Positions 4,841-48,716 of a DNA stretch of 48,716 nt are shown here, one piece after another. Source of the stretch: a virus; the IMG/VR virus record IMGVR_UViG_3300038548_000125, positions 1 to 48,716 of that record; one strand, given 5' to 3'. Each line of letters starts with the position of its first letter. Within the stretch, counting starts at the first letter, position 1. Below the pieces are notes generated by a model. That model saw nothing but the letters and a program-made list of their open reading frames with translations, did no database searches and was not told where the DNA came from. Made by a program: the position numbers and the translations under genes.

Positions 4841-5479
4841 TTATTGGTAGTATTCGCCTCGGGCTATTTCGCCTGATATCCTGATTAGCGCCTGCTTTAA
4901 TCGCTCGTCAGTTTGCTGTAATGCTATTTCGTGAACGTGGGTAGATTTGAATTTTAGATAAGCGGCGTGGGCTTTCTTTGGTGTGTCATACTTTCCTAAA
5001 TTGTTGTTATTTCCATGCGAGCCACATTGAGATAAAAACATACCATCCCTGCCGCAAATGCTAACGCCTTGGGGTAGCGTTCTTTTTGTTTCGCGCTTTC
5101 TTAAAATTAATTTATTTATCTTCTGGTCGACAAAAATACATAGCTCTGGGCTGTATATTTTGTTGTTTGTTTTTATAATATCCTTATCGTTTTGCTTGCC
5201 AATCCAGTTTTGATCTTTTACCCAGTCGTAAAAATTAGAAAAAATAAGCCACTCATCACAAACCAAGCAGTCTTTGTATTCTAATTGTTTATTTATGAAT
5301 TCGGGGTCATAACACCTTTGGATCATGTTTTTCCATGTGTCGTATATTGGGCAGTTATATTGCTTACCATTTAATCTAATGGTTACTTTGTAGCTCGCGT
5401 CGTTAGTTGCAACGCCAAGTATTAACTTTCTTCTTGAAAGGCTTAGTTCGCTTGCGGTTATTTCTTGAAATGAATACAT
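4841..5479 (-). CDS. Homing-endonuclease-like protein with AP2-type tail, copy A
   Basis: 212 residues and one of four related genes in this genome (others at 9513, 16525 and 33104). Shared order: G[VI].xNDxxY, an xRCY motif (IQRCYDP), a DEWLIFSNF block, then KDII..NNKIYSPELC. A degenerate AP2-like DNA-binding region follows (LPQGVSI...LGKYDTPKKAHAAY). Such proteins are free-standing, HNH/AP2-type selfish nucleases in phages; cleavage is inferred, not shown. It sits between tail tube and chaperone genes with its own promoter, structured leader and terminator. It is the most diverged of the four. Confidence 0.62.
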   Translation of the reverse strand: MYSFQEITASELSLSRRKLILGVATNDASYKVTIRLNGKQYNCPIYDTWKNMIQRCYDPEFINKQLEYKDCLVCDEWLIFSNFYDWVKDQNWIGKQNDKDIIKTNNKIYSPELCIFVDQKINKLILRKRETKRTLPQGVSICGRDGMFLSQCGSHGNNNNLGKYDTPKKAHAAYLKFKSTHVHEIALQQTDERLKQALIRISGEIARGEYYQ

Positions 5480-9512: not shown

Positions 9513-10154
9513 TCATTTGGTTATTTTGTTTATAGATCCAGATATCAATATTTCAGCATGAAGTCGCAACCCATTGGCCACCCTAACGTCTGATTGGATC
9601 TTTACTGCATCTAGTATCATTTCCAACTTAGCGTTAATATAAGCCTGACTAGCTTCTTCTTTTGAATCGTAACGACCAAGACTCACCCTTTTGCCATCTA
9701 CCCTAATTCCAGATTGATATTTCTTTCTTTCCTCATTCCATGTCGCGCCTCTGAATCCTTTCCCTTTAAGGGTGCCGCAATTGTTTAGTAGTGTATTTAA
9801 TTGCCTTGTTATAAATGCGCAAGTTTCTGGCGAATAAATCTTATTACTTGGTAGTATGACGTCTTTATCAAGCTGTTTATCTTGCCAGTCTTGATTTTTC
9901 ATCCATGCGCGAAAATTAGAAAATAATAACCACTCGGGACAAACAGAGCAGCCAATGTATGTAGGATTTCTTGCTTTTAACTTGCTTGAATAGCATCTGG
10001 TAAGCATGTCGTGCCACCTTGCGTAGTATGGACACATTATTTTTTTGCCGTTTTCTACATAGCCGGTTAAATATTCGGAATCATTAATGCCAATACCGTG
10101 AATTGGCCTTCTTCGAGTAAGGTATGATTTATTGAATGGGATTTCTTTGAACAT
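9513..10154 (-). CDS. Homing-endonuclease-like protein with AP2 domain, copy B
   Basis: 213 residues from ATG 10154, chosen because AAGG lies 8 bases upstream; an in-frame GTG at 10163 is less likely. Same family as copies A, C and D: GIGINDSEY, LTRCYSSK, PEWLLFSNFRAWMKNQDW, DKDVILPSNKIYSPETC. A clear AP2 domain follows at about 140-190 (GFRGATWNEERKKYQSGIRV, then LGRYDSKEEASQAY). Next to the methyltransferase in the accessory island. Nuclease activity is inferred from family resemblance. Confidence 0.65.
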   Translation of the reverse strand: MFKEIPFNKSYLTRRRPIHGIGINDSEYLTGYVENGKKIMCPYYARWHDMLTRCYSSKLKARNPTYIGCSVCPEWLLFSNFRAWMKNQDWQDKQLDKDVILPSNKIYSPETCAFITRQLNTLLNNCGTLKGKGFRGATWNEERKKYQSGIRVDGKRVSLGRYDSKEEASQAYINAKLEMILDAVKIQSDVRVANGLRLHAEILISGSINKITK

Positions 10155-10159
10155 TTTAC

Positions 10160-10229
10160 GCACCTTCTAGAATGGAAGAAATTGCCATATTTCTATGGCG
10201 AAAGGTGCTGGCGTTTATTTAGTATAGCA
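10160..10229 (-). promoter_or_regulatory. Promoter and ribosome-site-sequestering leader of copy B nuclease gene
   Basis: Extended -10 TG-C-TATACT at 10229-10221. In the leader, GCACCTT (10208-10202) pairs with AAGGTGC (10166-10160), burying the AAGG ribosome site. Inside is a second hairpin GCCATA-GAAA-TATGGC with a GNRA loop (10199-10184). T4 homing endonucleases are known to be restrained by similar ribosome-site hairpins. Confidence 0.7.
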
Positions 10230-10746: not shown

Positions 10747-10789
10747 TTTATTTCTCCATTGTGGTCATTAGATAGCTTAGGGACACTTA

Positions 10790-11167
10790 CCCACTGAGCT
10801 AATCAATATAATTATATAAGCATGTATCAATATTAAACTTTATCAGAAACGGTCAACATCCATATAATGCCGTCACAAACCTAAAAGTGCCCACTGAAAC
10901 TATTTATCACTCTACATTTGCAGTGTAAGTGCGTCCGCTATCAAAGACGATTTAATATTGATTTGTACATATAAGCTATTTTGGTAAACGTTTCTGCTTT
11001 TGGTGGCTTATGCCTAGGGGAAACTTTGTAAAGCGCCTAGATGGCTGGAATTAAACTTGAGGCATTAAAAAAGGCTTAGTGGGTAACTGTTCGAGCGGGT
11101 ATGGTTAAATGACCCCAGTTACTTACTAAACCTTATCTACTGTCTTTTGGGCTCGAAACCAATCAAC
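10790..11167 (-). ncRNA. Structured noncoding RNA 1 (pseudoknot family)
   Basis: No gene in about 460 bases. Downstream of an extended -10, the minus strand reads GTTGATTGG and then a pseudoknot. TTCGAGC (11157-11151) pairs with GCTCGAA (11096-11090). A 17-nt helix lies at 11132-11116/11089-11073. An inner hairpin GGGT/ACCC (11115-11112/11100-11097) abuts it without gaps. TTTTTT follows. RNA 2 has the same fold with different bases. Beyond it, CCAGCCATCTAGGCGCTTT and TTTCCCCTA are conserved with RNA 2, and a perfect 12-bp helix (10962-10951/10837-10826) spans the 3' part. The 3' end is not defined; it could be a regulatory leader for the gene at 10746. Confidence 0.72.
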
Positions 11168-11173
11168 AAACCA

Positions 11174-11182
11174 ATTGTACCA
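11174..11182 (-). promoter_or_regulatory. Extended -10 promoter of ncRNA 1
   Basis: TG-G-TACAAT on the minus strand, followed by TGGTTTG and then the shared start TTGATTGG. The promoter of ncRNA 3 has the identical nine bases. An ACCGCT/AGCGGT inverted repeat lies just upstream, between it and the stop of the gene at 11214. Confidence 0.75.
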
Positions 11183-11213
11183 CCGCTAAGATTATTAATC
11201 AAAGCGGTTGGGT

Positions 11214-11553: not shown

Positions 11554-11823
11554 CTAAAATCCGGTGTCTTTAGTTTGTATTTCGCAACCCTGACTCTTGA
11601 GCCAAGGAATTAGTTTTTCTTGAAAGCATTCACCACATAAATCAATTGAATCCTCTTCTGTAAAACCACCCTCTGGAAATTGAGACCCATGATTATGACT
11701 TACCTCAACTTCGTCAACATCATAAGTTCCATTTTCGATTTTCTTCTTGCACATATCACAAATCGTTTCGACTAGAACCTTTTTCATCAACTCAGGGATC
11801 ACTTTGTTTTTATATTTTTTCAT
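11554..11823 (-). CDS. Putative zinc-binding small protein
   Basis: 89 residues with two cysteine pairs, CDMCKKK (about 22-28) and CGECFQEK (about 63-70), a spacing able to hold one metal ion. SD GGAG six to seven bases before ATG. First gene after the terminator of the head-gene unit; element 1 of the TGGTCGGATATG series lies about 54 bases upstream. Confidence 0.62.
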   Translation of the reverse strand: MKKYKNKVIPELMKKVLVETICDMCKKKIENGTYDVDEVEVSHNHGSQFPEGGFTEEDSIDLCGECFQEKLIPWLKSQGCEIQTKDTGF

Positions 11824-11876
11824 TTTCGCTCTCCAATTAGTTATAAATCCAACCTTACATTACTTCACTGATTGAG

Positions 11877-13013: not shown

Positions 13014-14153
13014 CTATCCTAATAGGATCGAGGTATGCTCTGGTTTTATGTTCTTGAAACCGTAGGCGATAGCAATCTCATAACGCACTTTGCGATAGCC
13101 CGGATAGATTGACACTTCAAATGTTAATCCTGACCGGTCATCCTGAATCAGCATTCGATCAATCGCCATGTCGCCTTCTTCCGGTAACGCTGGCGCACGA
13201 GTTACTAGCTGTAATGCGCTACGAGAGAACCCCATGTTAGCCACATAATCATCACCGATGGTCATTGCAACAGCAGACGCCGCGATAGCTTCACGAAGGC
13301 CGGGAGCCGCAAGCGTGATAGCGCCGGGAGCCGCAACACCAACTTCGACAACGTACTTATTAGTATCGCCTGCAAATGTAACAACGTCACCAGCTAATAC
13401 GGTGCCAGAGCCAGTAATTAGCGTGATAACAGTAGCGCCAACAGCATAGCCTGCGGTATCGCTCGTATAAGCCGTACCAGTGCCGTTTACGACATTTGCT
13501 GTTTGAGCTGACTCGCGAATTGCAAAGCCATGAACATCAAGCAATACACCTTGGCGCAATAGTGACGCATCAGCCGCTTCGTTAGCCTTAGTTAACTGCG
13601 TTAATGTACGCATTTTGGCGCCAGCGGTTGAATCAATAACTAATTGTAGGTCACCAAGTGGTGCGCCGTTGTCAGATAAAATTTTACGAATCTGCGCGGT
13701 ATCTTGCAGCGTTGAAGCGAATGGAGTTACGCCAGCCGTGCCGAAAGCGCGAGAAGTTGCTTTATATAAGCTTGCAACGTCGGTTTCGATTTCATTGGTT
13801 AGGCTTCGCATCGCTTGGGCCATTTGGCCTGCACGAATGGATAAATAGCCTGGGCCGTTGTTTAAGCCTTTTTGCTCCTCACCAACCCAGCCAAACTCAG
13901 CGGCTCGGGATTTAGTGATGATAATTTCGGTGTTTGTTACTACTTGATCAGTTGGTTCGGGAGTTACCATTGCTGGGGTTACGTCAACAACGTTAGCAGC
14001 GCCGGTAATCGGAACTCGAACGCTCTCACCAACCGAGGCGCGACCATCTGTTGCGTTTAAAGTTACAGCAGGAATAAAGCCAACCTGCTCGCGTGATACA
14101 ACGTCTAGCGCTGCGTATAAATCCGGAATTAGATCCGTTAGTGTGTTAGCCAT
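13014..14153 (-). CDS. Major capsid protein, P22 coat type
   Basis: 379 residues. The N-terminal pattern (TLTDLIPDLYAALDVVSREQ, VRVPITGAANVVDVTPAMVT, KSRAAEFGWVGEEQKGLNN), the inserted domain (about 225-285, GSGTVLAGDVVTFAGDTNKY) and the end (YPGYRKVRYEIAIAYGFKNI) match the P22 gp5 coat family found in many siphophages and podophages. HK97 fold is inferred from the family. Preceded by its scaffold gene and followed by a terminator. Confidence 0.9.
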   Translation of the reverse strand: MANTLTDLIPDLYAALDVVSREQVGFIPAVTLNATDGRASVGESVRVPITGAANVVDVTPAMVTPEPTDQVVTNTEIIITKSRAAEFGWVGEEQKGLNNGPGYLSIRAGQMAQAMRSLTNEIETDVASLYKATSRAFGTAGVTPFASTLQDTAQIRKILSDNGAPLGDLQLVIDSTAGAKMRTLTQLTKANEAADASLLRQGVLLDVHGFAIRESAQTANVVNGTGTAYTSDTAGYAVGATVITLITGSGTVLAGDVVTFAGDTNKYVVEVGVAAPGAITLAAPGLREAIAASAVAMTIGDDYVANMGFSRSALQLVTRAPALPEEGDMAIDRMLIQDDRSGLTFEVSIYPGYRKVRYEIAIAYGFKNIKPEHTSILLG

Positions 14154-14164
14154 TATTTTTTACC

Positions 14165-14920
14165 TTAATCAATTATTTTAATGCCGCTTCTTATGGCTGT
14201 ACTTTTTTCGTGAGCAGAAAGTTGTTTAAATGCGCCGCGAGACATTGTTTTGCCGTTAGCACCATCTGAACCACCCTTGCCACCATACGCGCCTTTTGAA
14301 CCGGGGAATTTAGCAAAATGTTTTAAATTTGGGTCCTGGTTTAAAACTTCCATAACCCGATCTATGTCATTGTCTACCGCATCGCCACTGGCATTAGTAA
14401 AAACTGACTTACCCTCAACGTTCTTGATGTGGCTCATCATTAGCAACTTGCTGAATGAGTCAACCATTTCTGCCGGGACGTACTTACTAGCAATTTCTGT
14501 AGCTAGCGTTTTGTTGCTCGTCTCTACTAGAGATGTCTGCAACCCTGTAAAACTTTCCTGCAACTTTTCGTTAGAATCAAATAACGATTTGTACTTATCG
14601 GCGGACTGTTGCATTTCTAGCTTGTGTAGCTCGCTAGTTTTGCCACTATCCTTTAGCTCTGCCATTTGTTTAACTAACGCTTGTTCTTGCGCTAACTTGG
14701 CAGCAGATTCTTGCTCTTGCTGCTTGACGGTGATACCGCTTTTAAATGATTCAAAATCATTTTGTAACGAGGTTAACTGTCCTCGTTGGCGAAATCCTGA
14801 AATCTTGGATTCAGCTAAATCCTTGTGCATCCAGATTTGTTTATCGCCGTCTTTGTACTCGATGAAACTTGCTTCGTCCCCACTGGGAATATCAGCTTGG
14901 TTATTGTACTGAAGTTGCAT
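14165..14920 (-). CDS. Scaffolding protein
   Basis: 251 residues immediately upstream of the coat gene, with a long predicted coiled coil at about 45-135 rich in Q, E, K and A. A Gly-rich basic C terminus follows (GSKGAYGGKGGSDGANGK). This composition and position are those of P22-type internal scaffolds, whose basic C terminus binds coat. No protease motif, so it is probably recycled rather than cleaved. Confidence 0.82.
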   Translation of the reverse strand: MQLQYNNQADIPSGDEASFIEYKDGDKQIWMHKDLAESKISGFRQRGQLTSLQNDFESFKSGITVKQQEQESAAKLAQEQALVKQMAELKDSGKTSELHKLEMQQSADKYKSLFDSNEKLQESFTGLQTSLVETSNKTLATEIASKYVPAEMVDSFSKLLMMSHIKNVEGKSVFTNASGDAVDNDIDRVMEVLNQDPNLKHFAKFPGSKGAYGGKGGSDGANGKTMSRGAFKQLSAHEKSTAIRSGIKIID

Positions 14921-14959
14921 TATCGGACTCCGAATTATTGCAGTTGTTTAATTTATGTC

Positions 14960-14968
14960 ATTGTAACA
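14960..14968 (-). promoter_or_regulatory. Extended -10 promoter for scaffold and coat
   Basis: TG-T-TACAAT on the minus strand about 40 bases before ATG 14920; no -35. The same nine bases occur in front of the neck operon at 8509. Confidence 0.75.
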
Positions 14969-14995
14969 CTTTGACTAATTAATGGCGAATTTGAC

Positions 14996-16480
14996 CTATT
15001 CGCCGTTAGTTTCTGACCGATTTAATAATTCTTCGGCCTCGCTTATTAGCGCTCCGCCTTTTTCTAACTGAGCCAATGCCTCTGCTCTATCAATTAATCC
15101 CATAGTGAAATTATCGAGTATCGCCTTTTGCTCTTGAGGAGTTAATTTAACCTTGTTGAATTCTTTGTTTAGAACGATTTCAATTTCAGGCTCGTTTGTG
15201 CTGGTAGACATAAAGTTAAAGCACCAGCCTAATACGCGAGTGTATGACTCTTCGATTGACGACTGGATGTTCATTAACGCGCTTAACTCTTCAGCGCTGC
15301 GAATCTTAGCAACGCCTACGGCTTCATCTTTCGGATCTGAAGTATCAAACCTAGCACCTAATGCTTTAGCCTCTTTCTGGTTCTCTTCCATGTATTTAAA
15401 CATTGCATTACTGTCAGCATCCCATTGTAAGTAGCCAATTTCCGCATCTTTAGGTAGCGGTATATGTGAGGACGCACCGGTTGCTATGTGCTCGTTGCCG
15501 GTTAGATTTTTATATATTTCGAATGCTTGATTGGTCCAGCCGCTTGACCACATGGTTGGTTGTGCTGACCTGTGGATCGACTCCTTTAAATCGGCGTTTA
15601 CCTGGTAGCGGGCAATGGCTTTTAGGCAAATAGGGTATAACAACCCTAGCGCCTTTGGGATTGATGATGACTTTTGCTTTTGGTCTATAACGATTTCAAA
15701 CGGGATCATATTCAATCGACCAGTGTTATTTTCAGGATACAATTTGTCGCTGATTTCGTCCTCACCCTCGGCCGTCTTGGTTATTTGTTGCTGATAGTAT
15801 TCGCCGTTTTCATCTAGCGCTAGCACTAATTGATTTTCAACTTCAACTCGCTTCAATGTGTCGCGGTTGATTTCGCTAGTCTTTTCCGCGAGCTTTATGA
15901 ATGTTAACTGGTTTTGATTATTAACCACTCCGTAATCCCAGTCGACAATCGACTCTCGCGGATAATGCTTGATGGTTGCTTTTAAGTCTAGAGCTTTAGC
16001 CTGTGCATTTGTTAGCTGCGGCGAATCGTCATTGATATCAACCTGAGTTAACCCGTTAAAGTCCACTAGTAATCCGTGAAACTTAACTTCAAGCAAATTA
16101 GCCTGGGTGATTTCGATTGATTCTGATAGCGTGAGGTTGTCGCCGTCTGAATTAATTAGCAAGTACTCAATCTCGGATGGTATCTCAGCGAAGTCGGGCG
16201 GCGTTGATTTTAAGGCGCCAATAAGCCCGCTTTCTGTTCTTGATGGAAATCCGTCAAATTCAGCTCTATCTTTGTATGCTTTATAGCGATTACTAGCCTC
16301 CACAAAATCTTGACCGGTTAAAATATCTAAATCAGTAGGATTTGGCAGGTAGATTTTAGACCGGTCGCCGTTCTTGATGGCGTTCGAGCCATCCATGCAA
16401 TCCCTTACTGTTTTCACTTCATCGATAGTGAAATCGTATTGTGGATGATGGATGCCCATCATATCGCCATGTTGTGTCAT
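14996..16480 (-). CDS. Portal protein (DUF4055-like)
   Basis: 494 residues. The stretch YKAYKDRAEFDGFPSRTESG (about 68-87) followed by LIGALKSTPP is typical of the DUF4055 portal group that accompanies P22-type coats. The C-terminal helical region has EEQKAILDNFTMGLIDRAEA. The portal forms the 12-mer DNA channel at one head vertex. The gene order MuF, nuclease, portal is inverted compared with the usual portal-MuF order. Confidence 0.85.
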   Translation of the reverse strand: MTQHGDMMGIHHPQYDFTIDEVKTVRDCMDGSNAIKNGDRSKIYLPNPTDLDILTGQDFVEASNRYKAYKDRAEFDGFPSRTESGLIGALKSTPPDFAEIPSEIEYLLINSDGDNLTLSESIEITQANLLEVKFHGLLVDFNGLTQVDINDDSPQLTNAQAKALDLKATIKHYPRESIVDWDYGVVNNQNQLTFIKLAEKTSEINRDTLKRVEVENQLVLALDENGEYYQQQITKTAEGEDEISDKLYPENNTGRLNMIPFEIVIDQKQKSSSIPKALGLLYPICLKAIARYQVNADLKESIHRSAQPTMWSSGWTNQAFEIYKNLTGNEHIATGASSHIPLPKDAEIGYLQWDADSNAMFKYMEENQKEAKALGARFDTSDPKDEAVGVAKIRSAEELSALMNIQSSIEESYTRVLGWCFNFMSTSTNEPEIEIVLNKEFNKVKLTPQEQKAILDNFTMGLIDRAEALAQLEKGGALISEAEELLNRSETNGE

Positions 16481-16524: not shown

Positions 16525-17163
16525 CTAATCAGACAAACCCTCTAATAATATTCCAGCGTGAAGTCGTAAGCCGTTTGCTATTCGTTCGTCGGTTTGTTGG
16601 CTTGCTGCCTCTAATATGATTTCAACTTTTTTGTTTATGTACGCGTCTGACGCCTTACTTGCACTATCAAAGCTTCCTATATTTATGCTCTTGCCGTTGT
16701 AATTAACTCTAGCTCTAAATATGTGCTCGCGCTTATTTATACAAACGCCTCGGGGCAGAAGTCCCTTTAGAGATGACCTAAAAGTTAATAACGTATTTAA
16801 AGACTTTTTTATAAACGCACAATTTTCTGGTGAGTAAATTTTATTGCCCGGCTCAATGACATCTTTGTCGATCTCTTTACCTTGCCAGTCTTGTTTTTTC
16901 ATCCAGTTTTTAAAGTTAGAGAAGTAAATCCAATCTTCACAAATTGAGCATCCTATATACGTAGGTTGTCTTTTTTGATATTTAGATGAGTAGCAACGAG
17001 TTAAGATTTTAGTCCACCTTTCATAGTAAGGGCATACTAATTTATTTCCGTTTACTTTTTGATATACTTCATAATTTGCATCATTAATTCCAACGCCCAA
17101 AATTGGCCGCCTCAGCGAAACAGATCTTTTTGTTGTTGGTTTTTCCACGAATTTATTTGTCAT
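16525..17163 (-). CDS. Homing-endonuclease-like protein with AP2 domain, copy C
   Basis: 212 residues from ATG 17163 (MTNKFVEKPTTK); SD GAGG is seven bases upstream, whereas an in-frame upstream start at 17247 would translate the structured leader. Family blocks: GVGINDANY, LTRCYSSK, CEDWIYFSNFKNWMKKQDW, DKDVIEPGNKIYSPENC, then AP2 residues LPRGVCINKREHIFRARVNY and IGSFDSASKASDAY. Inserted between MuF-like and portal genes. Confidence 0.65.
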   Translation of the reverse strand: MTNKFVEKPTTKRSVSLRRPILGVGINDANYEVYQKVNGNKLVCPYYERWTKILTRCYSSKYQKRQPTYIGCSICEDWIYFSNFKNWMKKQDWQGKEIDKDVIEPGNKIYSPENCAFIKKSLNTLLTFRSSLKGLLPRGVCINKREHIFRARVNYNGKSINIGSFDSASKASDAYINKKVEIILEAASQQTDERIANGLRLHAGILLEGLSD

Positions 17164-17262
17164 AACAACCTCACAGTAGGTATCACAGAGGAAGGTTTCG
17201 TGCCGATCAGTCTGTGGGCTGATTGTTCCCCCGCTAAAGGTAGGCACATGGTTATTATAGCA
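17164..17262 (-). promoter_or_regulatory. Promoter and structured leader of copy C nuclease gene
   Basis: Extended -10 TG-C-TATAAT (17262-17254). The leader can pair GTGCC with GGCAC around an ATCAG/CTGAT hairpin. Closer to the gene, AACCT pairs with AGGTT, covering the ribosome site GTGAGG. This parallels the copy B leader although the sequences differ. Confidence 0.55.
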
Positions 17263-18807: not shown

Positions 18808-19047
18808 CTAAGCCTTATAATCATAAATTTCATAACCCGGGTATACCTTAGAGAATTGAATTTCACTCATTAGCGAGTAAGGCACCTCTATCAAATCTAT
18901 CTTTATGCCACGCAAACCATGGTATAAAACAGTTTTCTTTCTCAATAATACAAATTCAGGGTCGGGATGTTCAGCCTTATACTCACGCAATACACGCAAC
19001 ACTGCCTCGCCATTATTTGTAAATAAACTTTTAATAAATTTAATCAT
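18808..19047 (-). CDS. Hypothetical protein
   Basis: 79 residues from ATG 19047 (MIKFIKSLFTNNGEAVLRVL); SD GGAGAG supports this over an in-frame GTG two codons earlier. Contains RGIKIDLIEVPYSLMSEI. Unknown function; part of the accessory operon between HTH/YopX and MuF. Confidence 0.58.
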   Translation of the reverse strand: MIKFIKSLFTNNGEAVLRVLREYKAEHPDPEFVLLRKKTVLYHGLRGIKIDLIEVPYSLMSEIQFSKVYPGYEIYDYKA

Positions 19048-19060
19048 TTTCACTCTCCAA

Positions 19061-19264
19061 TTAGTAATACATATTCTTGTTTGTGAATTCCTGCCAGCTA
19101 ACCGTCATAATAAAAGCATCAAACCCCATACTGTCGGCGCACATTCCGTAAGTTGGCTGGATGCCCCAGCTATGAACGCCTATTGACTCGCCTACATTAA
19201 GGTCTGGTTTATCATCAATCATTGTGCAGGAAATGTCTGATATTGACTCGAATGTTATATTCAT
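19061..19264 (-). CDS. Hypothetical protein
   Basis: 67 residues, start overlapping the YopX-like stop (ATGA) with SD GGAG. Contains MTVSWQEFTNKN near its end. No domain recognised. Confidence 0.55.
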   Translation of the reverse strand: MNITFESISDISCTMIDDKPDLNVGESIGVHSWGIQPTYGMCADSMGFDAFIMTVSWQEFTNKNMYY

Positions 19265-32886: not shown

Positions 32887-33114
32887 CTAAATTTGTTTAA
32901 GAGGTGGTAGCGATTTAGGATCCGCACCGGCGGCGATCTCTGCTTGGCGTGCATCCCATGAGACCTTGAATTTATCGGGTCGGGCGCAGTTAAGGGCATT
33001 GTTTAGCGCGACAATCTTGTTGCCTTGCTGCTTAACTACATCTTTAAGCGCCTGGACGTTCTCAACTGGTTTGATTAGCGGCGCTATGAATAGTACGCTT
33101 CCATTAAATAGCAT
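32887..33114 (-). CDS. Hypothetical protein with N-terminal hydrophobic segment
   Basis: 75 residues. MLFNGSVLFIAPLIKPVENV may be membrane-associated; then a helix (QALKDVVKQQGNKIVALNNA) and a Pro-rich end. Starts inside the last codons of the nuclease copy D gene. Confidence 0.55.
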   Translation of the reverse strand: MLFNGSVLFIAPLIKPVENVQALKDVVKQQGNKIVALNNALNCARPDKFKVSWDARQAEIAAGADPKSLPPLKQI

Positions 33115-33697
33115 TATTTTGCTCCCTGAGTCTGTTTGCGTGCAATCTAAGTCCGTTAGCGATTAACGGGTCAGTTTGTTCTTGTGCTGCTTGTAGTATT
33201 AATGATGTCTTGGCTTTAATGTATGCTCGGCTTGCTGCCTCGGAGGTAATAAAATAACCTAGGTGTTTTCTCTTTCCGTTTAGCATAATTTTTGCGTGGT
33301 ATTTTCTGTGTTGCCTATGCCAGCAAATGCCTTGAGGTAACAACCCTCGTTGCGCCGCACTATCGCATAGTAAGCTGTTTAACTCGTGAGTAATAAAGCG
33401 ACAATTCTCTGGCGAATAAATTTTATTACCTGGATTGATTATATCCTTGTCTAGATCCATCCCTTCCCATTCTTGATTAACCATCCAAGATCTAAACCCA
33501 CTAAATAATAACCACTGCCTAACCACAGAACAACCTCGATATGTTGGGTTTTTTTCTTGATACTTAGGATCGTAGCAACGTCGAATCATACTATGCCACC
33601 TTTGATAGTAAGAGCACGTAACTCCCTTGCCGTTAACTATTGGACGAACCATATAATCAGCATCATTGATCCCAACTCCAAAAACAAGTTTACGCAT
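33104..33697 (-). CDS. Homing-endonuclease-like protein with AP2 domain, copy D
   Basis: 197 residues from ATG 33697 with SD AAAGGA seven bases upstream; an in-frame upstream start at 33739 overlaps the HTH gene and lacks an SD. Family blocks GVGINDADY, IRRCYDPK, RQWLLFSGFRSWMVNQEWEG, DKDIINPGNKIYSPENC, LPQGICWHRQHRKYHAKIML and LGYFITSEAASRAY. Unlike copies A-C it has no own promoter or leader and is embedded in an operon. Confidence 0.65.
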   Translation of the reverse strand: MRKLVFGVGINDADYMVRPIVNGKGVTCSYYQRWHSMIRRCYDPKYQEKNPTYRGCSVVRQWLLFSGFRSWMVNQEWEGMDLDKDIINPGNKIYSPENCRFITHELNSLLCDSAAQRGLLPQGICWHRQHRKYHAKIMLNGKRKHLGYFITSEAASRAYIKAKTSLILQAAQEQTDPLIANGLRLHANRLREQNNAI

Positions 33698-33707
33698 TTC
33701 ATATCCT

Positions 33708-33860
33708 TTATTTAGTCTTTGGCGCATAAACCCGCCCATCGTGCCAGATACAGTCTAATTTAATCCAGCGTTCGACTTGTTGCCTGCGCTCGTTTATTGA
33801 TTTAGCAAACGCCGTAACGTTGCCGTTAAAGTCTTCTTTGATGTGTTGTTTAAGTTTCAT
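33708..33860 (-). CDS. Small Cro-like HTH protein
   Basis: 50 residues: VTAFAKSINERRQQVERWIK is a helix-turn-helix, and the end GRVYAPKTK is typical of tiny phage Cro-type regulators. Overlaps the upstream gene by 11 bases. A candidate for binding the GTGTTG-containing control regions at 34432 and 39445. Function inferred. Confidence 0.65.
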   Translation of the reverse strand: MKLKQHIKEDFNGNVTAFAKSINERRQQVERWIKLDCIWHDGRVYAPKTK

Positions 33861-36418: not shown

Positions 36419-36601
36419 TTAACCATCTAAATTAATCAGGTCAAATAATCGCTTCTCGATTACGCAGATCTTGTCTAACAATTCTGCCATCTCTTTACCA
36501 GATACGCCCCAGTCATCACCAGTTGAAACATCAAATAGGATTGTCTTTGCTGCCGAAATCCTAACTCTGTTTGTCGCGATCAAGTATTCGTCTTTAGTCA
36601 T
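36419..36601 (-). CDS. 60-residue helical protein
   Basis: TKDEYLIATNRVRISAAKTI, then KEMAELLDKICVIEKRLFDL. SD GTGAG before ATG 36601. First gene downstream of ncRNA 2. Unknown. Confidence 0.56.
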   Translation of the reverse strand: MTKDEYLIATNRVRISAAKTILFDVSTGDDWGVSGKEMAELLDKICVIEKRLFDLINLDG

Positions 36602-36614
36602 AATATTCTCACTT

Positions 36615-37069
36615 GTTGATTAATTATTTAAAAATAAAGTCACTAAGCCCTTTTTCCTCCAAGATTGGAAACGAACCTAGCTGGCTCTAATCTTGTCTAG
36701 TTATTAGTAATTAATATTACCGCCAACTTAGAAACATTTCTGTCGAGTACTAAAAATCCTCCAACTTGCCGAAACAAGTGCTTCGCTAAAAGCAGATTCC
36801 AAATAAATGGTATCTTGTCCTAGGTTGTGAATGGGCACACACATTGCCTAGACTGTTTTGATTGCTAAATCGCTTAGCGGGGATCTTTTCTGCTTTTTGG
36901 AGCTATCCATAGGGGAAATGATTACAAAGCGCCTAGATGGCTGGGGAGGGAACTGTAGACAATAAAAAAGGCTCTGATAGTAACTGGTCGAATAGACAAA
37001 TTATCGAAATCTGCCTCAGTTACTATCAAAACCTTATCTAACTATCTCTTGGATTCGACCCCAATCAAC
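36615..37069 (-). ncRNA. Structured noncoding RNA 2 (pseudoknot family)
   Basis: No gene in about 590 bases. The RNA begins GTTGATTGG and folds as ncRNA 1. GTCGAAT/ATTCGAC (37059-37053/36993-36987) is knotted through a 17-nt helix (37033-37017/36986-36970). AGGCAGAT/ATTTGTCT (37016-37009/37001-36994) stacks between, with no unpaired base. TTTTTT follows. Wobbles are G-U on this strand. CCAGCCATCTAGGCGCTTT and TTTCCCCTA are shared with ncRNA 1. Further helices: AAAAGCAG/CTGCTTTT (36897-36890/36795-36788) and CAAGATT/AATCTTG near the 3' end (36695-36660). The 3' end is not defined. Confidence 0.78.
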
Positions 37070-37075
37070 GAGTCA

Positions 37076-37084
37076 ATTATATCA
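37076..37084 (-). promoter_or_regulatory. Extended -10 promoter of ncRNA 2
   Basis: TG-A-TATAAT on the minus strand, followed by TGACTCG and TTGATTGG. Spacing to the shared start motif equals that of ncRNA 1. Confidence 0.75.
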
Positions 37085-37140
37085 AACTATCAGATTAATT
37101 ATATAATTATTTTACGGTCAACACTTTGATTGATTTATTG

Positions 37141-37166
37141 GCAAAAGAAAACCCTCGGGGTGAGGG
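37141..37166 (-). terminator. Terminator of early small-gene operon
   Basis: Minus strand CCCTC-ACCCC-GAGGG followed by TTTTCTTTT, 30 bases past the stop of the gene at 37196. Isolates ncRNA 2 from the early operon. Confidence 0.82.
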
Positions 37167-37195
37167 CTTGGGTTAATCGGTTAAGTGATGTAAAT

Positions 37196-37384
37196 TTATA
37201 TCTTTCTGAATTCAATCATTCTCTCGACAATCTCAACACTATGTTTTTGATCGCCATTAATTTTCCTAGCGAACGCCTCTGCTTTGTCTTTTGAATCAAA
37301 GATACATAGCGTTTTGCTATCCAAATCTGTCTTTATTAGCCCAAGTTCTTTATCTATTATTACAAATACTGACTTGTCCATCAT
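37196..37384 (-). CDS. Hypothetical protein
   Basis: 62 residues; KSVFVIIDKELGLIKTDLDS then CIFDSKDKAEAFARKINGDQ, a small beta-beta-alpha look seen in several tiny phage proteins. SD GGGGAAG. Last gene before the terminator. Confidence 0.56.
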   Translation of the reverse strand: MMDKSVFVIIDKELGLIKTDLDSKTLCIFDSKDKAEAFARKINGDQKHSVEIVERMIEFRKI

Positions 37385-41975: not shown

Positions 41976-42545
41976 ATGACTAGTAAAGGCGTAAACAAAG
42001 TAATTCTAATCGGCAACTTAGGTCAAGATCCAGAAATTCGATACTTGCCTAATGGTGGCGCAGTGGCTAATTTGACATTGGCAACGTCTGAATCGTGGAA
42101 AGATAAGTCGACGGGCGAACAGCGCGAGAAAACTGAGTGGCACCGAATAGCGATCTTTGGCAAGCTGGCTGAAATTGCCGGTGAATACCTTCGCAAAGGT
42201 TCGAGCGTTTATATTGAAGGCGCATTACAAACCCGCAAATGGAAAGATCAAAGCGGCCAAGACCGTTACACCACTGAAATTGTCGTACAGGGATTTAATG
42301 GTGTTATGCAAATGTTGGGCGGTGGCCAACAGCAAGTTAAGCCAAATGACGGCCAAGGAAAGCAACAGGCCGCACCACAACAACAGGGAGGCTATCAACA
42401 GCAAGCACCAAGACAGCAAGCGCCGCAGCAAAGCGCACCGCAACAGCAACCAGCTCAAGCGCCACACCTGGATGGCGAATGGGACGATGATATACCATTT
42501 GCCCCGCTGTGTTTGCAGTATCCAGCGTTAATGTACACGCTTTAA
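41976..42545 (+). CDS. ssb: Single-stranded DNA-binding protein
   Basis: 189 residues. OB fold at 1-112 ([60 protein letters not shown]), a Gln-rich linker (about 115-160), then the acidic tail DDDIPF. The tail does not end there: 14 residues [14 protein letters not shown] follow. Similar extensions occur in some prophage SSBs. It may alter binding of host partners that need a free C-terminal Phe. Confidence 0.93.
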
Positions 42546-42640
42546 CCAACAACAGCCGCTCTAACGGGCGGCTGGTCTAATCAGTCAATCGAGTGAATTG
42601 GCGTAATATAAGATTTTAACAAATGGGAATGATGAAATGA
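42543..42640 (+). repeat. 98-bp intergenic regulatory cassette, copy 1
   Basis: Runs from the SSB stop to the next ATGA. About six mismatches to the copy at 43717. Contains an AGCCGC/GCGGCT hairpin, a promoter-like GTAATATAAGAT box and the ribosome site GGGAATGATGAA. Confidence 0.9.
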
Positions 42641-43719
42641 GCAATGAATTATTAGTAATCGAAAAGCTTGAACTTGTACCTTTCTTCACTAAGGGTGATC
42701 TGCTTGATGACACGCTTGATAAGATAGCTAAAGAAGCTCGAGCGCACGTTCCTGACGCCTCAACGGATAAGGGCCGCAAGGCTATCAAGGCTAACGTTAC
42801 AAAAGTAACTAAGTCAAAAACGTTCCTTGAGGGTCACGGCAAAGAGTTGGCCGCTGAATATAAAGCCATCCCAAAAGCTATCGACGCAAACCGAAAGAAA
42901 TCAAAGGACTTTTTAAACGCTCTTGTTGAAGAAATACGCGAGCCGTTAACCGCATGGGAAGTTATCGACAAAGCAGAAAAGCAGCAAGTGATCGACACTG
43001 AGGCTTTCTTGGCTGAGTATGAATTAAAGCATGAAGATGGTCATCGAGATAACGAGCTATTCGATTTAAAAGCTGCACAAGCCGAAGCCGATCGCCAAGC
43101 TGAAATCAAAGCAGCATCAGACAAAGCGGCCGCCGAAGCTAAAGCGCAAGCAGAGGCCGAAGCATCTGAACTAATCGCACAAGCCGAGCGTGAGAAGATA
43201 GCAGCTGAACAGCGCGAAATAGCAGCCAAGCAAGCCGTAATTGATGCTGAAGCTAAAGCGGCCCAAGATGCGATTGACGCTGCAGCCCGTGAAGCTAAAG
43301 CTAGGCAAGATGTTATCGACGCAAAGGAGCGCGCACGATACGAAGCTGAACAGGCAGAGCAACGAAGAATCTTAGCGGAACAACAAGCCAAGCAAGATGC
43401 CATTGACGCACAAGAACGCGAAATACTAGCGACTCAACAGACTGAAACAAACAGAATACTAGCAGCGCAACAAGCCAAGCGTGATGCTGATGCCGCCGCC
43501 GAAAATGCACGAAAATGCGAAATAAGAAAGCAGGAAGTTGCAGCCCATCAAGCAAAGGCTGACCAAGACGCGAGAGAAGCAAATAAGCGCCACGCCGGAG
43601 GCATCAACACCAAAGCTATGAATGACTTTATATCATGCGGCCTTGATGAAGCTAGCGCCCGTTTAGCGGTTAAAGCATTGGCGGCTGGTAAGATTCGCAA
43701 CGCTGGCATTAATTACTAA
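42637..43719 (+). CDS. Coiled-coil phage protein (DUF1351/TolA-like look)
   Basis: 360 residues. N-terminal about 120 residues (VIEKLELVPFFTKGDLLDDT, VTKSKTFLEGHGKELAAEYK) resemble phage DUF1351-type proteins that sit in recombination cassettes. A 170-residue Ala/Gln/Glu coiled coil follows, then a conserved C-terminal domain (NTKAMNDFISCGLDEASARL, LAAGKIRNAGINY). The long charged helix makes low-complexity matches to TolA unreliable. Confidence 0.62.
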   Translation: MSNELLVIEKLELVPFFTKGDLLDDTLDKIAKEARAHVPDASTDKGRKAIKANVTKVTKSKTFLEGHGKELAAEYKAIPKAIDANRKKSKDFLNALVEEIREPLTAWEVIDKAEKQQVIDTEAFLAEYELKHEDGHRDNELFDLKAAQAEADRQAEIKAASDKAAAEAKAQAEAEASELIAQAEREKIAAEQREIAAKQAVIDAEAKAAQDAIDAAAREAKARQDVIDAKERARYEAEQAEQRRILAEQQAKQDAIDAQEREILATQQTETNRILAAQQAKRDADAAAENARKCEIRKQEVAAHQAKADQDAREANKRHAGGINTKAMNDFISCGLDEASARLAVKALAAGKIRNAGINY

Positions 43720-43814
43720 CCAACAGCAGCCGCTCAAGCGGGCGGCTGGTCTAATCTGTCAATCGAGTGAATTGGCGTAATATATAATTTTAACAAATGG
43801 GAATGATGAAATGA
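43717..43814 (+). repeat. 98-bp intergenic regulatory cassette, copy 2
   Basis: Same length as copy 1, about 94% identical. The -10 region is improved to TATAAT here. Like copy 1, it exactly spans the stop-to-start interval, so it looks like a duplicated control unit. Confidence 0.9.
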
Positions 43815-47280: not shown

Positions 47281-48716
47281 TCACAGTATTGCGCCCTTTA
47301 TATTGATGGGATTAGCTCCTGATGTAATTGTCACGGCGTTACCATTTGTTTTTATTGCCAGCCCAGCGATGCCTCCGACGCCACCGACACCCGGCAATGA
47401 AGGATCTGAAACTGGTGTGTCGCCTTGCCCTCCAAAGTCGCCGCCTGACACTCCGGCCAATACTACCACGCCGCCGATGCCACCATTTAAGCCGTCGACT
47501 GATATTGACTCAAATGTTCTGAGTGCGTTAAAGCCTGAGTGCGTAACGAACCCCCTATCCCCACCTAGACTGGCTACATAACCAGCGCCGCCGCTGCCGC
47601 CGTTACCCTCGAATGTGTTAATTTGTTTTGCACCTCCAAACGTAAGACTGTCAATAAGTGCGGTCCTTGTTCCGCCAGCGCCGCCACCTCCAGACCATAT
47701 CGCGCCGGAGCCTGTATTTATAGTGCATGGAACTGTAGCCTCAAACGCTACCCCTCCGTCAAAGCCTGCACCACCATCGTCACCATCAACTAGGTCATCA
47801 CCGAACGTGATCGCTTGAGGTGTGCGGTTAAGTATTACCCCGCCAATACCACCAGCGCCACCAGCACCAAGAATTGAGCCTTTACTAATGAAATCAAATG
47901 TTACGCCTGCCGCCTGCGTTCCGGTTGTGAATGCGGAGATTGCTGTTGATGTTGATCCAATCGTAACGCCGGTATCAATTAGTATTACGTAATTACCAGC
48001 GGCCGGTGCGAATTCTGTTGCCAGATCGTAGTCTTCTTTATCAACCGAGATAGTGAAGTCGACATTAACGCCTGCAAGCGGATCTTGAAACAGCTTGGTT
48101 TTTATTCTGTATCGCATGCCGCCTTTGTCTTTAATGCTCAAGACTTGGTGGTTTGCTGCTCTATTCGTTCCGTCAACGTTTACAGCTCGACCACTAGACA
48201 AGTTGATGATTGAACCTAATTCAAGGTTGCCGCCCTGCGTAGAAAATACGCTTTCAACGTCTAAATCGAACTCGGCAATGATTGGAACGCTTTCAACTCG
48301 ATCAATAACGCGTTGAGCAATCGCGGTGCCTTTTGTTGTGTCGGCGCTTGACGTTGTTAGCCATGGGTTGAAGAATGTTTTCTTTTCGTTAATTTCTCCA
48401 ATAAATTTAGGCTGTTCGTTACCTAGGTTTACCGATTGAAATACCACCGAGAAGTTTTCTAGGCCATCATCTTCAGTTATATCGTTTGGCCCCCACGCAA
48501 CCGTATATCGAGTAAACTGGTTCTTAGTGTCTCGCGTGAACTCAATTGAATCTTGACCAATGTGATCATCTTCGTTGATATTAATAGGTTCAATGTCTGC
48601 GTCGGCAACCTGTTTTATTTTAATGAGGCTAGTTATCTCGTCATAAAACATCGTTAAGTCACCATTTTTAATCAGCTCGTCAATGAGTTTCTTAACTGCG
48701 GTTGGCTTGTTGATGT
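47281..48716 (-). CDS. J-like tail hub / receptor-binding protein, C-terminal part
   Basis: Continuation of the gene starting at 1310; bases 48590-48716 duplicate 1-127. The apparent ATG at 48651 is internal. The last about 220 residues are glycine-rich: AGGAGGIGG, SGGGGAGG, GNGGSGGAG, GLNGGIGG, GVGGVGGIAG, separated by more variable segments. Such alternating glycine motifs are known in T-even gp38 adhesins, where variable loops between them recognise receptors. So the hub may end in an adhesin. Ends TGA 47283-47281. Confidence 0.85.
   Translation of the reverse strand, partial: INKPTAVKKLIDELIKNGDLTMFYDEITSLIKIKQVADADIEPININEDDHIGQDSIEFTRDTKNQFTRYTVAWGPNDITEDDGLENFSVVFQSVNLGNEQPKFIGEINEKKTFFNPWLTTSSADTTKGTAIAQRVIDRVESVPIIAEFDLDVESVFSTQGGNLELGSIINLSSGRAVNVDGTNRAANHQVLSIKDKGGMRYRIKTKLFQDPLAGVNVDFTISVDKEDYDLATEFAPAAGNYVILIDTGVTIGSTSTAISAFTTGTQAAGVTFDFISKGSILGAGGAGGIGGVILNRTPQAITFGDDLVDGDDGGAGFDGGVAFEATVPCTINTGSGAIWSGGGGAGGTRTALIDSLTFGGAKQINTFEGNGGSGGAGYVASLGGDRGFVTHSGFNALRTFESISVDGLNGGIGGVVVLAGVSGGDFGGQGDTPVSDPSLPGVGGVGGIAGLAIKTNGNAVTITSGANPINIKGAIL
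48590..48716. repeat. Terminal direct repeat, copy 2
   Basis: Identical to 1-127. Drop one copy to obtain the circle. Confidence 0.97.

Follow-up and report, generated by a model that had tools for sequence, protein, structure and literature searches.

The window, i.e. the whole stretch of DNA that was analysed (48,716 nt), is a 48.6-kb phage record with genes for a P22-coat-type capsid protein, a portal protein, a terminase and tail proteins, among which four HNH endonuclease genes are found. An identical direct repeat of 127 bp at both record ends makes it probable that the phage genome is complete and was assembled as a circle. No tRNA genes were found in the window. Two RNA loci, nc1 and nc2, are each located in a gene-free gap. 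A within-genome comparison identified them as paralogues (71% identity, E=1e-16), and nc2 matches itself and nc1 and nothing else in this genome. Two further direct repeats were noted (Table 1). The longer one flanks a 360-aa gene of unknown function (PHROG 1376) and looks, together with this gene, like a duplication or insertion unit.

Table 1. Features of the window related to nc1 and nc2, HNH genes and direct repeats
Feature	Position	Strand	Remarks
Terminal direct repeat, 127 bp	1-127, 48590-48716		identical copies
HNH endonuclease genes (four paralogues)	4841-5479, 9513-10163, 16525-17247, 33104-33739		interspersed among phage genes
nc1 3′ region	10747-11066	-	gene-free; shares 93% identity with the G003 copy over 350 nt
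nc1 5′ domain	11067-11167	-	strand order as in nc2
nc1 T6 tract	11072-11067	-
nc1 strand b′	11089-11073	-
nc1 strand a′	11096-11090	-
nc1 inner hairpin	11115-11097	-
nc1 strand b	11132-11116	-
nc1 strand a	11157-11151	-
nc1 promoter-like site	11174-11202	-	TTGATT, 17 nt, TACAAT preceded by TG; 6 nt ahead of predicted +1
Inverted repeat enclosing the nc1 promoter	11174-11202		-35 box in the loop
Direct repeat, 38 bp	11811-11848, 19035-19072		84% identity
nc2 3′ domain	36749-36853	-	helix with inner hairpin, then multi-hairpin junction; common to G003b, G007, L156, L169
nc2 5′ domain	37069-36964	-
nc2 T6 tract	36964-36969	-	terminator-like; invariant in alignment A6
nc2 strand b′	36970-36986	-	from the covariation alignment
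nc2 strand a′	36987-36993	-	ATTCGAC, partner of a; 7-nt bulge reaching the start of b′
nc2 inner hairpin	36994-37016	-	AGGCAGAT/ATTTGTCT, directly against b
nc2 strand b	37017-37033	-	long helix; b/b′ 90.8% paired
nc2 strand a	37053-37059	-	GTCGAAT, inside the P0 loop
nc2 5′ hairpin P0	37049-37069	-	GTTGATTGG, 8-nt loop, CCAA; predicted 5′ end 37069
nc2 extended -10 element	37076-37084	-	TGA TATAAT, 6 nt ahead of predicted +1 at 37069; from spacing in homologs
Intrinsic-terminator-like hairpin	37149-37169	-	between the preceding gene and nc2; pattern match only
Direct repeat, 98 bp	42543-42640, 43717-43814		94% identity

Occurrence of the RNA in other phages

The single-sequence fold of nc2 was far better than those of shuffled sequences (z −6.7); that of nc1 was not (z −1.4), and the b/b′ helix of nc1 contains two A.C mismatches. 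The original prediction had regarded the compensating changes between the two copies as strong evidence for RNA structure. Because of the poor z-score and the mismatches of nc1, the two copies alone are suggestive only, and the argument gained its strength from an alignment of 19 sequences.

For the identification of homologs IMG/VR was searched with patterns for the terminator, P0, the promoter and the U-tract, by the capsid protein, and, as the original prediction had proposed, with a covariance model, which was built from ten copies. The 5′ domain is present in at least 31 viral contigs with at least 34 copies, the window included, in phages sampled from the environment, as retrieved by pattern scans that were anchored on the family's own sequence and will miss more distant members. 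The window phage and two relatives, G001 and G003, have a pair of copies each, of which one is at an early position and the other within the structural region. The covariance model also recovered members in other phages that had been left out of its building, namely L124 (56 bits), L156, L169, L170, L227, L206, L212 and L285-L288. A second group of about 47% G+C (L180, L195, L197, L199, L202, L223, L265, L294, L299, L308) is unrelated in sequence and keeps the knot topology as well as the TTTTTTATTGCCTC end. HNH genes lie downstream of some RNA copies in other contigs, too.

Blastn searches of INPHARED with six family regions and of PLSDB with one family region gave no match, nor did an exact search for CCAGCCATCTAGGCGCTTT in IMG/VR. 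When 84,980 species genomes were scanned for one pattern, two matches were obtained, both of them chance matches without the structure. A Sak-like protein encoded beside a second-group RNA shares 66% identity with a protein from a Methylophilales phage; Venkman, a Methylophilales phage that encodes a related Sak-like protein, gave no covariance-model match.

The 5′ domain and its predicted knot

The 5′ domain begins with a G (predicted +1), followed by the hairpin P0 (stem TTGG/CCAA, 8-nt loop), a short linker, strand b, the inner hairpin, the 7-nt bulge a′, strand b′, the T6 tract and the motif A(A/T)TGCCT. The strand order a, b, inner hairpin, a′, b′ on the minus strand, as originally predicted for both regions, was recovered with all strands in place. 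In nc2 and nc1 alike a′ ends exactly where b′ starts and the inner hairpin abuts the long helix. Strand a corresponds to positions 2-8 of the loop of P0, a conserved 4-bp hairpin. Since strand a thus lies in an 8-nt loop, the knot is a contact between a hairpin loop and a bulge.

Pairing was counted in alignment A6, which comprises 19 distinct sequences. In total 94.4% of the cells are paired. The a/a′ helix reaches 99.2%, and two-sided changes occur in 6 of its 7 pairs; for the inner hairpin the value is 96.5%, and each of the 6 counted pairs shows such changes. The P0 stem is paired to 98.7%, with a G-C to A-U change in three sequences. Two-sided changes were found in 21 pairs, compared to 12.6 ± 1.7 in shuffled alignments (0/500 as high), and the covariation score of 0.412 was reached by none of 500 shuffles (0.146 ± 0.012), while slid versions gave at most 0.08. 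Strand a occurs as 17 different 7-mers, each with seven Watson-Crick partners in a′; exceptions are G003a with 6/7 pairs and G001a and its copies with about 5/7 (by eye). In L124, L156 and the L180/L199/L202 group the sequences of b, b′ and the inner hairpin are also replaced, and the topology is kept. A sequence-free scan of 3.3 Mb for this topology found the 7/7 pattern in family members only, and shuffled sequence gave one match at the 6/7-pair threshold. As judged from the alignments, the homologs are decisive for a conserved, covarying RNA structure of the 5′ domain, whose pairing bases vary between phages and yet match in nearly all cases. The claim of a selected RNA structure was therefore borne out, and the helices, whose loss of pairing in other phages was to count against it, stay paired.

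The alignment contains about 49 G-U cells, and one U-G pair is kept in 18 of the 19 sequences. On the opposite strand these conserved pairs would turn into A.C mismatches, which assigns the RNA to the minus strand of the window. An alternative pairing of the 3′ end of nc1 (10783-10799) with b′ was no better than that with b.

The contigs L206, L286 and L287 share 97-98% identity over 2.8-3.9 kb (1.6-3.2% mismatches over aligned kilobases) and 99.5% in the 370 nt after the RNA. Within the RNA core, 9-16 of 87 positions differ (10-18%), mostly paired positions that stay paired, and these contigs are thus natural near-equivalents of compensatory mutants. Selection for change, paralogue exchange or weak constraint on base identity may be responsible.

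The covariation of a with a′ fits pairing between two molecules as well as pairing within one. In the former case loop-bulge kissing would lead to homodimers or higher oligomers of the RNA, and sequence change would keep the two copies of one phage apart. In line with this, the two copies within the window phage (G000), G001 and G003 differ in their a/a′ sequence, and the phage RNAs ROOL and GOLLD use covarying intermolecular loop-junction pairing (PMC12286853). Nevertheless, a and a′ are also able to pair within one molecule over a linker of 9-12 nt, and we consider kissing between molecules rather unlikely, albeit the best surviving alternative.

Promoter, U-tract and 3′ regions

A -10-like hexamer was located by script precisely 6 nt upstream of the G of P0 in 14 of 23 copies, L156 among them, mostly with TGN ahead, and at 7 nt in three copies. 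In the remaining copies, including L206, L286 and L287, the best hexamer found by the script is displaced or weak (4/6). By eye, the sequence TAAGAT, preceded by TGA, is likewise spaced by 6 nt in the L199 group. The predicted start at 37069 fits the -10 box, whose position is uniform in most members. Some copies have an inverted repeat enclosing the promoter, in the window at nc1 and at the same place in L007, L003 and L112. Its arms differ yet pair (CACCGC/GCGGTG, CACGGAC/GTCCGTG), and it is perhaps an operator or the end of an upstream transcript.

The 17-bp stem followed by the invariant T6 tract has the stable stem and U-tract of an intrinsic terminator. An intrinsic terminator and nothing more was ruled out, since the knot covaries and the 3′ domain of nc2 covaries in five members. 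Wherever a member runs on far enough, a gene-free region of 149-478 nt follows the U-tract; none was called for G001a. Sequence comparison of homologs confirmed that stretches beyond the T6 tract are kept. In the subgroup of nc2, G003b, G007, L156 and L169 a 105-nt stretch yields closely similar minimum-energy architectures from each sequence alone. In this 3′ domain 88.6% of the cells are paired and 12 of 21 pairs show two-sided changes, a value reached in none of 500 shuffles, and slid controls had at most three such pairs. As two of the five sequences are near-identical and the structure was drawn from these same sequences, the covariation is good but not final, and formally it applies to the nc2 subgroup only. 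G003b and G007 (92% identical in the 3′ region) differ by one compensated pair, TGTC/GACA to TGAC/GTCA. For the nc2 subgroup, the stretch past the U-tract supports the suggestion of an RNA longer than a terminator. Single-sequence folds of 3′ regions were mostly no better than shuffles and were discarded as evidence.

Other subgroups have other, unrelated 3′ sequences. A given 3′ module recurs behind more than one 5′ variant, and 5′ variants that resemble each other are joined to different 3′ modules, which points to an exchange of modules. Moreover, the RNA region is kept and the next gene differs in the pairs L195/L199, L202/L299, G003b/G007 and G005/G001b. The different 3′ regions together with near-identical units ahead of different genes argue for a modular RNA unit and not for the leader of one gene. 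This bears on the view that the 5′ domain is a cis-acting attenuator, i.e. that it acts as a terminator and that its knot controls whether transcription continues into the gene behind it. The stem with its T6 tract and the genes at the end of the gene-free regions would suit such a function, and since a′ is transcribed ahead of b′, knot formation could compete while the RNA is being made. Nevertheless, near-identical units are followed by different genes, the members have no downstream gene family in common, and in nc2 the conserved 3′ region has a structure of its own, so that attenuation appears unlikely.

The strong terminator-like end and the exchangeable 3′ regions, unrelated in sequence, would also be expected if the RNA were only an sRNA of about 105 nt with a knotted terminator, and the 3′ regions were separate second RNAs or other adjoining elements. 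The U-tract behind the 17-bp stem could indeed end all transcription, with the 3′ region served by another promoter. However, a gene-free region lies past the U-tract in almost every contig that runs on, and in neither nc1 nor nc2 was a convincing promoter detected between the 5′ and the 3′ part, so we regard this explanation as a little less probable still. An element acting as DNA (origin, recombination or packaging site) through its inverted repeats is very improbable: two copies per genome, inverted repeats and module exchange at the borders would suit it, but only a one-strand RNA is expected to show conserved G-U pairs, long-range covariation of the knot and a constant promoter distance.

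The contig of the relative L004 (MCP 92% identical) has no RNA copy that could be found in its 40.6 kb. At about the nc1 position (13706-15990) it carries a gene with a phosphoribosyltransferase domain and a NAPRTase/NAMPT-like gene. Such a gene pair serves phages for the resynthesis of NAD+ against NAD-depleting defences. Since a contig in which the RNA was not detected has this NAD+-resynthesis-like pair there, the nc1 locus is regarded as accessory. The gene pair is also a weak hint, and the sole one, to counter-defence.

Relation to known RNAs and proposed function

The Rfam 15 covariance models gave no match at the gathering score for the window and ten homolog loci, and below it only chance-level matches to unrelated families. 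This covers GOLLD, ROOL, HDV-like, HEARO, ToxI and C4 RNAs as far as Rfam includes them. The family is new to Rfam, in agreement with the original prediction, which could assign it to no named family. HDV-like ribozymes have the strand order P1, P2, P3 hairpin, P1′, P2′ with a P1 of 7 bp, and P4 and the catalytic J4/2 lie between P1′ and P2′. The RNA resembles them in strand order and in its first helix of 7 bp. Unlike in these ribozymes strand a lies within a hairpin loop and no Rfam match exists; the assignment was rejected because aligned members have zero bases between a′ and b′ and thus lack J4/2 with the catalytic C. The C4 and CI antisense RNAs of phages P1 and P4 have short complementary segments, whereas the complement in nc1 and nc2 sits within the same 105-nt domain, again without an Rfam match. 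A tRNA-like T-arm in nc2 was dropped as the loop is the hypervariable strand a, and tmRNA was dropped after a tRNA/tmRNA-type scan of the window. ToxI-type antitoxin RNA and phage pseudo-ToxI are small pseudoknot RNAs on phages or plasmids (PMC3475682, PMC5772629) and to that extent similar. ToxI was rejected as tandem repeats of about 35 nt are absent from 36600-37200 and Rfam gave no match; no toxin gene was recognised beside the RNA when the neighbours were viewed without a ToxN model.

The RNA also resembles ROOL and GOLLD, large structured phage ncRNAs with covarying kissing contacts and unknown function (PMC12286853). These are 600-800 nt long. The family described here has lengths from about 105 nt, for the 5′ domain, up to 540 nt; in addition it lacks tRNA genes in the window and a match in Rfam, and its conserved part is the 5′ domain, the 3′ part being exchangeable.

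We favour, with a probability of about 0.5, an undescribed modular phage ncRNA family with its own promoter, a knotted 5′ domain and exchangeable 3′ regions, which acts in trans as an accessory RNA. On this reading the nc1 and nc2 RNAs represent a new family of structured phage ncRNA, which is probably accessory and trans-acting. Each would be transcribed from its own host-type promoter. In the 5′ domain of about 105 nt the 8-nt hairpin loop would pair over 7 bp with the bulge of a long second hairpin. The resulting kissing helix would meet the long helix and the inner hairpin at a junction without unpaired bases, and the U-tract comes next. Behind this domain lies one of several 3′ regions of about 150-480 nt, which are unrelated to each other and of which at least one appears to be structured. 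A partial stop at the U-tract may give rise to a form of about 105 nt besides a longer one. The knotted domain may stabilise the RNA or present it to a partner, and the 3′ domain would carry the specific activity. As accessory phage equipment the RNA may act in trans, plausibly against a host function or defence; counter-defence is the weakest step of the proposed mechanism.

Furthermore, one self-complementary, fast-changing kissing domain might be combined with interchangeable 3′ effectors, the a/a′ pair serving as a copy-specific address for recognition of the own type. This idea is tentative. If it were true, the RNAs would assemble with their own kind only, or would escape a host factor that reads their sequence.

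Large structured phage RNAs such as GOLLD and ROOL are a long-standing puzzle. The nc1/nc2 family is a smaller example, with two paralogues in a phage of about 48 kb, a compact knotted domain, 19 covarying sequences and distant relatives. Owing to the compact domain, the exchangeable 3′ domains and the natural variants L206, L286 and L287, kissing within or between molecules and copy-specific pairing are directly testable in this family.
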